Below are positions 351-15,354 of a DNA stretch of 24,485 nucleotides, one piece after another; positions within the stretch are counted from its first letter, which is position 1; every line of letters begins with the position of its first letter. The notes beneath the pieces were generated by a model. The model made no database searches. It was not told the DNA's origin and saw only the letters and a program-made list of their open reading frames with translations. Position numbers and translations under genes: made by a program. The DNA is from a virus. The DNA lies in the IMG/VR virus record IMGVR_UViG_3300048593_000271, positions 1 through 24,485 of that record; one strand, given 5' to 3'.

Positions 351-725
351 TGGACTAGGAGAGATTCGAACTCTCGTGTTTTTAATATTTCAACGAATAA
401 TACATTACAGCTTAGTTATAGATTAACGTGTTTAACTACACATAGGTCAACCAGTTAAGGTTAACTCCACCACTTAGTTTAATCTAACTAAGAAATCTTA
501 AAAAATAATTTTGGAATTATGCAGCAGCCATAACTCTACTAGTAGAGAAATAGTTTGCTTCTTCTTGTGTATCATCACCTAAAAGGTTATATACAACATT
601 CATGTTTGCTCTAATCTGAGCGTTGTTTGAATTGTTTCCGTTTAATTAAATTCACCTTAGTTTACAGTTATCTCTCTGGCTGATTATTTTATTTACTAAA
701 TTAAAAGTCAATTCCATTCTAGCCC
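351..725 (-). ncRNA. ssrA: Phage transfer-messenger RNA (tmRNA)
   Basis: tmRNA rescues stalled ribosomes by entering as alanyl-tRNA and then templating a degradation tag. Read on the minus strand, the 5' end GGGCTAG (725-719) pairs with CTAGTCC (358-352; one G-U), followed by discriminator A and no encoded CCA. The start continues AATGGAATTGAC, resembling the conserved tmRNA CTGGATTCGAC. The 3' end has a T arm GAGAG-TTCGAAT-CTCTC, preceded by ACTAAGCTGTAATG, which resembles the E. coli CTAAGCATGTA. The total of 375 nt is normal for tmRNA. An internal reading frame starts near nt 87 and ends in TAA, and CTTAGTT/AACTAAG forms a hairpin after it. The acceptor halves lie too far apart for a plain tRNA. 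Confidence 0.88.
517..639 (-). other. Predicted tmRNA tag-peptide frame (about 40 codons)
   Basis: Inside the tmRNA an open frame can be read from GGA (639-637, RNA nt 87-89, close to the E. coli resume position near 90) to TAA (519-517). The peptide begins GNNSNNAQIR and ends EEANYFSTSRVMAAA. Known tags are mostly 8-35 residues and end in LAA or MAA-like tails, so this one is long and ends MAAA. The resume codon is inferred by position only. An internal resume codon would give a shorter tag with the same C-terminus, which is what proteases read. Confidence 0.6.
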
Positions 726-3000: not shown

Positions 3001-3720
3001 TTAATGGTATAATTTAAAGCTCCTCGTCATTTTGAGAATTAGATATAATTTGTTTTTGTTTATTTTTTAGTCGGAAATATAACCCTCTCATATATTAGCA
3101 CCCTCTTTCTTATAGCGTCTCTTAAACTGTATAAGAGTAGGGTCACATAGCTTGCATTTATCCATCTAAGGATTTACAACTTTAAATACTCCATCAATGT
3201 GAAGTTACTACTTGCTGAGACTCATTTGTATTGTAGAGTAGGTGGATTCACTCATCTGATTTACTCTCATATTAGCCTAATTCCTTTCTCAAGGGAACAA
3301 TACATCTAGCTTTACAGCATACTACAAGGTTCTTCGTAGCTCTTGTATTCAAACCTCACACAGGGTTTTATACATCCTGTCAACTCAGGATTAGTATCTT
3401 TATGCAGAGGGTAATAGAATCGCATAACTTAGCTTCTAGTATCTCTTACAAAGGTTCAATGTTTAGCCTTTAGCTTTTAACAGATTATCAGTTCTGACGC
3501 TTTACACAGCTTAGCTATTATTTTAAAAATCACTTGTCCAAATTCTAGTGGAATATTGTTTTTTCATGGTTCTTATGTCTGACACGGAGTAGTTAATTTC
3601 CTCGACAATATCTCTACAATAAACACAACTGCTAGTACAGTTTATAAAGTTGAAAATCAATTTCATTAATTACATGCTGCGCTAGTAAAAACCTTATTGT
3701 TTATCTTCAAGCAAATGATT
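3001..3720 (-). ncRNA. Possible large structured non-coding RNA
   Basis: About 700 nt without an ORF of note in either strand. The base composition is more balanced than in the flanks, and there are many short perfect hairpins: CTCTTA/TAAGAG near 3120-3138, ACCCT/AGGGT closing around it, ATCC/GGAT, AGAGTA/TACTCT, TTCC/GGAA, TACAAG/CTTGTA, AAACC/GGTTT, and AACTG/CAGTT near 3628. The size and a phage setting near tRNA or tmRNA genes recall the large ornate phage RNAs (GOLLD and ROOL classes), but I recognise no class-specific motif. Strand is inferred from its neighbours. Confidence 0.35.
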
Positions 3721-12760: not shown

Positions 12761-13326
12761 TGAAGTTATTTGAAATGAAAAACCATGACCTCCAGACGAA
12801 CGAAGCTCTCTGGGGGTTATTACCTTTTAAAGCTTTACTAAAAAGAGATAAAAGTAGAAATAAAGAAATTGTATTTAAAGAAATACTCTTTATTTATTTT
12901 TATTGTGATATCCGTTCTGATTATGTTTATATAACTAATGATGAACTTAGAGCTAAAGAGATACAAAAAGATGTTGGTTTACCTACAGAATGGAAAATAG
13001 ATAAAGCTATTTTAGATGCAATTGAAATGTATGAATCTAAAACTATAACTCCAGTAGGTAAATTATATAAAAGTTCATTAAAAGCAGCAGACGATATTTC
13101 TAATTATTTAGAATCAACAAATGTACTTTTAAATGAAAGAACGGATAAAGGTAGTGTAGTAACTCCTTTAACAACTATTACTTCAGCTCTTAAATCAGTA
13201 CCAGGTATTATGAGAGATTTAAAAGCAGCTTATAAAGAAGTAGTAGCAGAACAAAAAGAAATGGAAGGAAGAACTAAAGGTAGTCGTACTTTAGGAATGT
13301 TTGAAGAAGGATTTGATCTTAATTAA
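12760..13326 (+). CDS. Conserved phage protein upstream of chaperonin and TerL
   Basis: 188 residues. A helical N-terminal part with aromatic residues (IVFKEILFIYFYCDIRSDYVYI) is followed by long amphipathic helices (WKIDKAILDAIEMYESKTI; LKAADDISNYLEST; GIMRDLKAAYKEVVAEQKEMEGRTKGSRT). It probably serves head assembly, given its location between chaperonin and terminase genes, but I recognise no family with certainty. The 5' end carries an unusually GC-rich hairpin (12789-12815), unlike the rest of the gene. Confidence 0.75.
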   Translation: MKLFEMKNHDLQTNEALWGLLPFKALLKRDKSRNKEIVFKEILFIYFYCDIRSDYVYITNDELRAKEIQKDVGLPTEWKIDKAILDAIEMYESKTITPVGKLYKSSLKAADDISNYLESTNVLLNERTDKGSVVTPLTTITSALKSVPGIMRDLKAAYKEVVAEQKEMEGRTKGSRTLGMFEEGFDLN

Positions 13327-13327
13327 T

Positions 13328-13894
13328 ATGAAAAATAATATTTGTATTTACAGACATATTAGGTTAGATACTAATAAAATATTTTATATTGGAATAGGTT
13401 CTTTAAAAAGAGCTTATAAAAAATATGGAAGAAATACTTATTGGAAAAATATTACTAATAAAATAGATTATGAAGTACAAATTCTTAAAAAAGATTTGAC
13501 TTGGGAAGATGCTAAAGAATTAGAAATAATATTAATAAAATATTATGGTAGAATAAATAATAATACAGGTATTTTAGTAAATATGACAGATGGTGGTGAG
13601 GGACAACTTAATTTTAGGCCTACAAAAGAAACTAGAGAAAAAATTGGAAATTTTCATAGAAATAAAAAAGTATCTTCTATTTCAAAAGAAAAAATGTCAA
13701 AAGCTAAAGAAGGTATGTATTATTTAGAAAATAATCCTAATTCTAAAAAAGTTGTAAATATAAAAACAAATGAAATATATAACACTTTATTAGAAGCGTC
13801 TAAAAGTATTAACATGAATTATAGTTCTTTTAAATGGGCTATTAAACATAAAAAGAATTTTAATTTTAAATATTTACAAATATGGGAGAAATAG
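13328..13894 (+). CDS. GIY-YIG homing endonuclease with NUMOD3 and NUMOD1-like domains
   Basis: 188 residues. The catalytic domain has CIYRHIRLDTNKIFYIGIG, where CIY...YIG is the GIY-YIG pair, then RAYKKYGRNTYW, the catalytic-type Glu in KELEIILIKYYGR, and NMTDGGEG. After it come NUMOD3-type DNA-binding repeats (TKETREKIGNFH; SKEKMSKAKEG) and a NUMOD1-type motif (VVNIKTNEIYNTLLEASKS). Such free-standing enzymes cut DNA near their own insertion site and spread by repair. It starts 1 nt after the previous stop and its 3' end overlaps the groEL-like start by 13 nt, so it has been neatly inserted. No intron boundary is visible. Confidence 0.9.
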   Translation: MKNNICIYRHIRLDTNKIFYIGIGSLKRAYKKYGRNTYWKNITNKIDYEVQILKKDLTWEDAKELEIILIKYYGRINNNTGILVNMTDGGEGQLNFRPTKETREKIGNFHRNKKVSSISKEKMSKAKEGMYYLENNPNSKKVVNIKTNEIYNTLLEASKSINMNYSSFKWAIKHKKNFNFKYLQIWEK

Positions 13895-15354
13895 AATTTA
13901 GTCCGAAAGATAAATTAAAAGAAGGTGTTAGAAAGTTAGCACAAGCAGTAGGTTCTACAATGGGCCCTAATGGTGCAACTGTTATTATTCCTGACAAAGA
14001 TAAATTTAATAGTTATAAGATAACTAAAGATGGTGTATCTGTTGCTAGAGAAATTAGATTTAAAGATCCTATTGAAAATATAGGTGCTAAACTAATTAAG
14101 GAAGTAGCAGAGTTACAAGTTCAACAAGCAGGAGACGGAACTACTACAGCAATTGTATTAGCTTCTGCGTTTATTGAAAACTTATTTGAATTTGAATATA
14201 ATGATATTGAAAAAGCATTTGATGAAATTATACCTAAAGTATTAAAACAATTAAAAGCTAATTCTAAAGAACTTAAAAAAGAAAATGTTAAATATGTAGC
14301 AACTATATCTGCTAATAACGATTCTAAAATAGGTGATTTAATTCAAAAAGCTTATAATTTTTCAAACTTAGTTAAAGCTGAAAAAGGTATATCACAAGAA
14401 GATAAATTAGATTTGGTAGATGGTATGAAATTACTTTCTACATATTTTTCTAAAAACTTTATCACAAATAAAGAAAAAGCTGAGTGTAATTTAGAAACAC
14501 CTAATGTGTTGTTAATTGATGGTAAATTAGAAGATTTAAAACCTTATACAGGTATTATTGAAACTAAAGCAACTAATGGTCAATCATTAGTAATTGTAAC
14601 TGAACACATATCAGATAAAGAATTACGTAAATTAGAAGCACATGTATTAAGTAAAAATATAAAATTATGTGTTATTAAAACTCCAGGATTTGGTCAGTTT
14701 AGAAAAGATATATTAAGAGATCTTTCAGACTTTACAGGAGCTTCTGTAATCAATAATCCTAAAGGAGATGTAAGTATTTCTGCTTTAGGTAAATTAAAGT
14801 CTATTAAAGTAACTAATGATTCAGCGTTACTTGTTAAAGATGATTCTATAAATGTAACAGAACTTATTGAAAGTTTAAAAATACTATCTAAAAATTTAAC
14901 TAGCTACGATAAAGAACAAGTAGATAAACGCATTGAACAGTTAACTGGTAAAGTTGCTGTTATTTATGTTGGTGGTGGTTCTGAATTAGAACGAGATGAA
15001 AGATTTGATAGATATGATGATGCTATTAAAGCAGTAGCTTGTGCATTAGAAGAAGGTATTGTAGAAGGTGGTGGTTATGCTTTAGCTGATGTTCAAAAAA
15101 TTATATATGAAGACTTTTATCAGTATAAAAATAATTCAAATATAATTAATAATTTATTATTAGTTTCATTAGTTAAACCTTGGAATACAATAGTAAATAA
15201 TGGTTATATAAATGTTAAATCAAATACAATGTTTGAACAAAATATCATAGACCCATTAAAAGTAACCAGATGTGCATTAGAAAATGCGGTATCTGTAGCT
15301 AAAACAATTTTGTCAACTAAGACAGTTGTATTAAATGAACAAGAATGGAATTAA
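13882..15354 (+). CDS. groEL: GroEL-like chaperonin
   Basis: 490 residues, about 50 shorter than host GroEL. The equatorial domain has MGPNGATVIIP (like LGPKGRNV), ITKDGVSVAREI, and GDGTTTA at 84-90 (ATP-binding Asp). The intermediate and apical parts include LITKxxG-like variation and TPGFGQFRKDILRD (like APGFGDRRK). The second ATP region has GKVAVIYVGGG, YDDAIKAVACALEEGIVEGGG (about 378-398; Asp for hydrolysis kept), and VTRCALENAVSVA. The GGM-repeat tail is absent. The chaperonin would encapsulate and fold capsid proteins. The stop overlaps TerL by 10 nt. Confidence 0.93.
   Translation: MGEIEFSPKDKLKEGVRKLAQAVGSTMGPNGATVIIPDKDKFNSYKITKDGVSVAREIRFKDPIENIGAKLIKEVAELQVQQAGDGTTTAIVLASAFIENLFEFEYNDIEKAFDEIIPKVLKQLKANSKELKKENVKYVATISANNDSKIGDLIQKAYNFSNLVKAEKGISQEDKLDLVDGMKLLSTYFSKNFITNKEKAECNLETPNVLLIDGKLEDLKPYTGIIETKATNGQSLVIVTEHISDKELRKLEAHVLSKNIKLCVIKTPGFGQFRKDILRDLSDFTGASVINNPKGDVSISALGKLKSIKVTNDSALLVKDDSINVTELIESLKILSKNLTSYDKEQVDKRIEQLTGKVAVIYVGGGSELERDERFDRYDDAIKAVACALEEGIVEGGGYALADVQKIIYEDFYQYKNNSNIINNLLLVSLVKPWNTIVNNGYINVKSNTMFEQNIIDPLKVTRCALENAVSVAKTILSTKTVVLNEQEWN

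Follow-up and report, generated by a model that had tools for sequence, protein, structure and literature searches.

The stretch of DNA analysed here (the window) is a viral contig of 24,485 bases, IMG/VR record IMGVR_UViG_3300048593_000271. Its major head protein showed 63.5% identity to that of Cellulophaga phage phi14:2 and approximately 47% identity to those of gut crAss-like phages, and GroEL, large terminase and portal families were also encoded; on the basis of these identities and families, the window is a crAss-like phage. The host of this phage is most likely a member of the Bacteroidota. The GroEL ORF (phrog_5725; positions 13882 to 15354, plus strand) adjoined and overlapped a homing-endonuclease-like ORF (phrog_314, NUMOD3; positions 13301 to 13894, plus strand).

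A tmRNA gene was located on the minus strand of the window, and the following features were assigned to it (the grounds for each are given in brackets).

351 to 725, minus strand: tmRNA gene, mature body without CCA (ARAGORN; full-length RF00023 alignment; relatives over the cut-off)
719 to 725, minus strand: 5' strand of the acceptor, GGGCTAG, pairing with 352 to 358 (sequence; G3 opposite U70, the alanine identity)
651 to 678, minus strand: block CAGAGAGATAACTGTAAACTAAGGTGAA, conserved and phage specific, located where pseudoknot 1 would be expected (IMG/VR scans; absent from bacterial and archaeal genomes)
640 to 645, minus strand: putative resume context TTAAAC, directly before the resume codon (like the host Flavobacteriia context, TTTAAAC followed by GGC)
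517 to 639, minus strand: predicted tag frame, GGA at 639 to TAA at 519 to 517, 40 codons, GNNSNNAQIRANMNVVYNLLGDDTQEEANYFSTSRVMAAA (sequence; family comparison)
580 to 618, minus strand: conserved tag core QIRANMNVVYNLL, pattern QxxANMxxVx[SN][LI][LI] (90 coding parts; dN/dS; predicted helix)
520 to 534, minus strand: degron-like C-terminal end of the predicted tag, VMAAA (family ends; close relative with RVLAAA)
352 to 375, minus strand: T arm (375 to 359) and 3' strand of the acceptor, CTAGTCC (358 to 352) (sequence)

The gene extends from its 5' end at 725 to the discriminator A73 at 351, a length of 375 nt without CCA, and ARAGORN called a tmRNA at 350 to 725 on the minus strand. Pairing between the acceptor strands GGGCTAG (725 to 719) and CTAGTCC (358 to 352) is complete, and with a T arm of GAGAG-TTCGAAT-CTCTC (375 to 359) the window has a tRNA-like domain with alanine identity (G3.U70) and discriminator A; acceptor, T arm and length were all as claimed in the initial annotation. 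Both G3-U70 and A73 were present in 85 of 85 relatives, for which the search pattern had fixed a G at position 3 and a C or T at position 70 and had left position 73 free. In an Rfam scan with an E-value threshold, the RF00023 alignment spanned tmRNA positions 1 to 374 with 25.7 bits and an E value of 4e-8. The covariance model thus supported the tmRNA over its full length, but the score lay below the 47-bit gathering score and the gene was missed in the default Rfam scan. As 18 of 20 family loci passed the RF00023 gathering score (48 to 94 bits), the sub-threshold score of the window reflects a divergent copy missing a curated threshold and not a lost structural feature. The ARAGORN call and the full-length alignment confirmed, at the level of sequence, that the one-piece tmRNA gene at positions 725 to 351 of this crAss-like phage is real, and the proposal of a phage-encoded tmRNA was in this way established computationally.

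A DNA search detected a strongly conserved stretch in phi14:2 (Crassvirales, Steigviridae), phi38:1/Calle (Pervagoviridae) and Flavobacterium Fpv phages (Fipvunavirus). Family members were gathered with patterns from the conserved DNA block upstream of the tag. These patterns matched well over a hundred IMG/VR contigs (98 and 37 in two scans and more in further scans) and had no match in 84,980 bacterial and archaeal genomes. The family tmRNA was called by ARAGORN in 65 of 99 members, and a crAss-like major head protein family was present in 33 of 36 large related phage records. By these computational searches the lineage was confined to phages in the collections examined, and it is phage specific, comprising crAss-like and some other phages of Bacteroidota; the window carries both of the family-defining features, the conserved block and a QxxANM core. 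Since the block used for collection lies outside the tag, the search itself did not produce the conservation of the tag. Furthermore, members with altered blocks also carried the tag core, one of them (L262) with the variant ESNM, which is without the Gln.

Loose blastn matches were obtained in Vibrio, Synechococcus and Pseudoalteromonas phage records, and no tmRNA was found in the three records tested. In phi14:2 (L002, 3936 to 4455), small 'hypothetical protein' genes, gp012 to gp014, are annotated inside or across the tmRNA gene and for this reason are probably not real genes. A group I intron match (RF00028, 96 bits) was observed near the tmRNA in a related phage contig (L032, 2766 to 2989, minus strand).

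No classical pseudoknot 1 was recognised upstream of the resume codon in the window, and the conserved block with a short covarying hairpin was found there. This hairpin, CAG-AGAGATAA-CTG (678 to 665), has its loop followed by AAACTAAGGTGAA. In the long-spacer class of relatives, with the hairpin XCAG-AGAGATAA-CTGX', the X-X' pair was A-T in 15, C-G in 7, T-A in 1 and G-C in 1, with no mismatch, and the pair is supported by this covariation without exception. The short-spacer class, which includes the window, has the three inner hairpin pairs only. Single-strand folding of the block was no better than that of shuffles, and a Watson-Crick pseudoknot of the AGAGATAA loop with the downstream ACTAAGGTGAA was not found by eye.

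The start of the tag was compared across 99 phage family members and at least 120 Bacteroidota host loci. A degenerate host pattern, GE-x-N-Y-A-L-A-A-stop, was detected at at least 120 genome loci, with nearly all of the 80 matches listed being labelled as Bacteroidota. Most of the host loci were called tmRNA by ARAGORN and had 9-residue tags, GE[N/T]NYALAA, with resume contexts such as TTTAAAC or TTAATT before GGC. The phage context was TTAAAC before GGA in the window and TAAAT before GGC in most family members; the GGA of the window is at gene position 87, and the resume codons of relatives were 84 to 91 nt from the 5' end. By the resume rule, an A at -4 is nearly invariant, with a purine at -3 and a pyrimidine at -1 (PMC2481249). 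A resume codon with an A at -4 and a stop-ended tag frame was found in the window (TTAAAC, GGA to TAA), and such a site, in the tag frame and at a similar distance from the block, was present in every member of sufficient length, as listed by a regular expression that itself required AA at -4 and -3. As the host-type context, the distance and the family comparison all place the resume site at GGA, the tag of the window is the 40-residue GNNSNNAQIRANMNVVYNLLGDDTQEEANYFSTSRVMAAA. Computational comparison thus placed the resume codon at GGA (639 to 637) and the ARAGORN start too late, and the tag of 40 codons counted in the initial annotation agreed with both the family and the host loci. Starts at GCT (AQIR) or GCA (ANM), of the type chosen by ARAGORN in relatives, were rejected; the -4 position of each in the window is not A, and context and distance fit GGA. 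In the product, an alanine from the charged RNA would precede the 40-residue tag.

Predicted family tags (85 distinct) were 24 to 45 residues long, with a median of 35. A review gives a range of 8 to 35 residues for tmRNA tags (PMC8012679), which is exceeded by the 40 residues of the window, as the initial annotation had recognised, and among the 97,179 sequences of a database the commonest tag length is 10 (PMC11915505). Read from the sequences, long tags are a family trait of variable length (24 to 45), and the unusual part is an internal QxxANMxxVxxLL, newly found here. All 90 unique coding parts contained QxxANM, with synonymous variation among its codons; these parts were aligned on ANM, so that ANM was fixed by the choice of members and the Q and other residues were not. 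Four Ala codons, two Asn codons, three codons at Val+5 and seven at [LI]+8 were used, with V+5 and [LI]+8/+9 being kept, and the core Gln was almost always CAA (86 of 90). Nei-Gojobori dN/dS values, pooled over pairs of related sequences and not amounting to a formal test, were 0.10 for QxxANM (a figure reduced by the anchoring on ANM) and 0.23 for xxVxxLL, with 0.85 in the five codons that follow (linker) and 0.37 in the last five, so that protein-level conservation of core and end was evident computationally. Among the 90 sequences, the core was open in frame +1 in one and in frame +2 in none, each frame being closed in at least 89. The synonymous variation of codons, the retention of residues and the closure of other frames argued for translation of the tag in the GGA frame.

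AlphaFold predicted the core as a helix with a pLDDT of approximately 85, which is suggestive only for a 40-residue peptide. The only core-less case among the first-collected members long enough to judge was a 49-aa tag without ANM (L116); the core is thus widespread in the family and not universal. GDDTQEE was found after different starts and before different ends in family tags, and the tag segments look modular. Conservation of the middle and end of the tag across about 85 related viral versions suggested a specific function of this tail for the virus. Overall, these analyses indicated, with a probability of about 0.8, a tmRNA with a 40-residue tag under protein-level selection.

A hydrophobic-Ala-Ala end ([VLIMAF]AA) was observed in 77 of 85 distinct family tags, with AVAA being the commonest. 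The window has this ssrA-type C-terminal signal, with Ala as the third-last residue in VMAAA; a close relative (L264) carries DKNTTAQIRANMQVVHNLLGDDSQEEANYFSTSRVLAAA with the end RVLAAA, and VMAAA is one residue from an LAAA end. As judged from these sequences, MAAA is a variant of the degron-like end of the family. It had been proposed at the outset that MAAA, as an ending of another kind, may direct products to a fate other than degradation. Diversion of products in this manner, or marking of host proteins for another fate, would be in keeping with a tail that is not LAA and with the AVGV end of one relative (Calle), but escape from degradation was not supported, because of the prevalence of hydrophobic-Ala-Ala ends in the family and RVLAAA in the close relative; with the last five codons also under purifying selection, diversion is unlikely.

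The conserved segment could instead be an RNA element, a structure or protein-binding site in the mRNA-like domain, with the peptide as a by-product. Its location within a structured RNA and the near-constant CAA of the Gln are compatible with such an element, but the Ala, Asn, Val and Leu codons change at their third positions with no change of residue, and dN/dS is 0.1 to 0.2, making this explanation improbable. It is still less probable that the window encodes an ordinary phage tmRNA with a short tag, resuming at the GAT chosen by ARAGORN, with the upstream frame being incidental. ARAGORN reads a 19-residue tag, DDTQEEANYFSTSRVMAAA, and the local context TAGGT before GAT also obeys the -4 A rule. 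However, the choice made by ARAGORN varies among relatives and coincides with the comparative start in no more than 9 of 65 cases, the strongest protein-level constraint falls on codons upstream of DDTQ, and host context and distance favour GGA. In most members of this family ARAGORN puts the start of the tag in the wrong place, and default Rfam thresholds miss the copy in the window. A decayed or non-functional remnant of a host tmRNA, to which the weak Rfam score of the window copy might point, is scarcely credible given an intact acceptor and T arm, an open tag, purifying selection across the family and a block that is absent from host genomes.

SmpB was not detected in 36 related phage records, which may be incomplete. 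The control for this search was positive in 10 of 14 well-known genomes, and the four without a hit were archaea. Among the window ORFs scanned, a part of the total, no smpB was recognised, and these results accord with the lack of a phage smpB noted in the initial annotation. In a search for a phage-encoded protease partner, no ClpP was found above the cut-off in the 36 records. As neither SmpB nor ClpP was found in the phage records, the tmRNA should rely on host factors. Examination of the fetched phage and host loci for a partner or mimic with the core pattern detected one longer frame with a partial match only (QIANM in L093), and as this was the sole match, no candidate partner or mimic emerged.

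We infer that the phage tmRNA with its 40-residue tag is expressed and working, being charged with alanine and using the SmpB and EF-Tu of the host, and that it rescues ribosomes stalled during infection. The tag would have three parts, (A)GNNSNN-AQIRANMNVVYNLL-GDDTQEEANYFSTSR-VMAAA, comprising a host-like start with its resume context, the core and, beyond a free linker, a degron-like end. An amphipathic helical core may dock on a host or phage factor, such as an adaptor, a protease or another partner, and the hydrophobic-Ala-Ala end should still be recognised by a host ClpXP-type protease, with degradation of the product. A docking role for the core is tentative, being somewhat less probable than its converse. 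The same holds for the proposal that QxxANMxxVxxLL is a phage-specific targeting peptide, by which chains left incomplete at rescued ribosomes would be handed to one specific partner, either a phage factor or an adaptor or protease of the host; if true, the phage tmRNA does something that the host GENNYALAA tag cannot. The reason that phages carry tmRNA is unsettled, published ideas ranging from upkeep of the hijacked machinery to tagging of host proteins (PMC9004378). Strong protein-level selection is found here inside the tag, far from the C-terminal signal, and such selection on the interior indicates that the sequence of the tag is in itself important to the phage. The family has members in culture (Cellulophaga phages phi14:2, phi38:1 and Calle and the Flavobacterium Fpv phages), which make these proposals directly testable.

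The window gene shares with bacterial one-piece tmRNAs (RF00023) a G3.U70 acceptor, a T arm, a resume site approximately 85 to 90 nt from the 5' end and a stop-ended frame, but differs in a predicted tag of 40 aa compared to a most frequent length of 10 (PMC11915505) and in having the phage block in place of the pseudoknot 1 region. With host Bacteroidota tmRNAs (GENNYALAA or GETNYALAA) it has in common a GGN resume codon after TTTAAAC or TTAATT and a tag with a Gly start and an Ala-Ala end. In contrast, the host tag has 9 aa, whereas phage tags are 15 to 36 residues longer and carry QxxANMxxVxxLL, and the block is absent from all of the bacterial and archaeal genomes scanned; the comparison with the host tag called for earlier thus set 9 aa against 40 aa.

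Phage-encoded tmRNAs are already known (PMC4131195, PMC9004378, PMC7162821), including those of mycobacteriophages, Bacillus phage G, Lactococcus phage AM1 and OM43 phage Melnitz (PMC4131195, PMC9004378). The AM1 and phage G tmRNAs exceeded the Rfam cut-off. The tag of phage G, AKLNITNNELQVA (13 aa by ARAGORN), and that of AM1, ANTQLAVA (8 aa read by eye; ARAGORN reads 16), are without the core, and since both are short and core-less, long core-bearing tags are not a general phage trait. One tmRNA has been counted in print for Cellulophaga phage Calle (PMC8776804), only the gene count being found in the main text of that paper; this tmRNA, annotated in the record, belongs to the same family as that of the window and has a tag of 30 aa by the comparative start. 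A literature search of open papers found nothing on tmRNA in flavobacterial crAss-like phages and no published description of the conserved tag.

Other RNA-like elements were observed near the gene. Directly 3' of the tmRNA (349 to 236, minus strand), a long terminal stem, AAAACCATCTAA/TTAGATGGTTTT, closes a set of four small hairpins and precedes a T run (z of -2.9); this element is a candidate terminator or separate small RNA. Upstream of the tmRNA (846 to 736, minus strand), there is a hairpin, GGTAGTATGGGTGAG...CTCACCCCTATTACTACT, in a stretch with a z of -1.5. In related phages, an RNA-like element, CAGCAGTTACTTGA...CAGTAACAGACATT, recurs just 3' of the tmRNA (L028, L043, L050, L069, L090, L100 and L120), with 16 loci matching in 4 distinct forms.

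Elsewhere in the window, positions 3540 to 3090 (minus strand) form a region of approximately 450 nt with almost no ORF, in which the blocks TTGAGAAAGGAAT, CAAATGAGT(T)CTCAGC, GTGACCCTACTCTTAT and AAGAAAGAGGGTGCTAA surround a variable hairpin. These blocks were present in none of the host loci and had no meaningful Rfam match, and the single-sequence fold of the region was only slightly better than those of shuffles. The blocks recurred in related phage loci, with GTGACCCTACTCTTAT and AAGAAAGAGGGTGCTAA being found in 20 sources (17 distinct), and the region is a candidate novel structured RNA.
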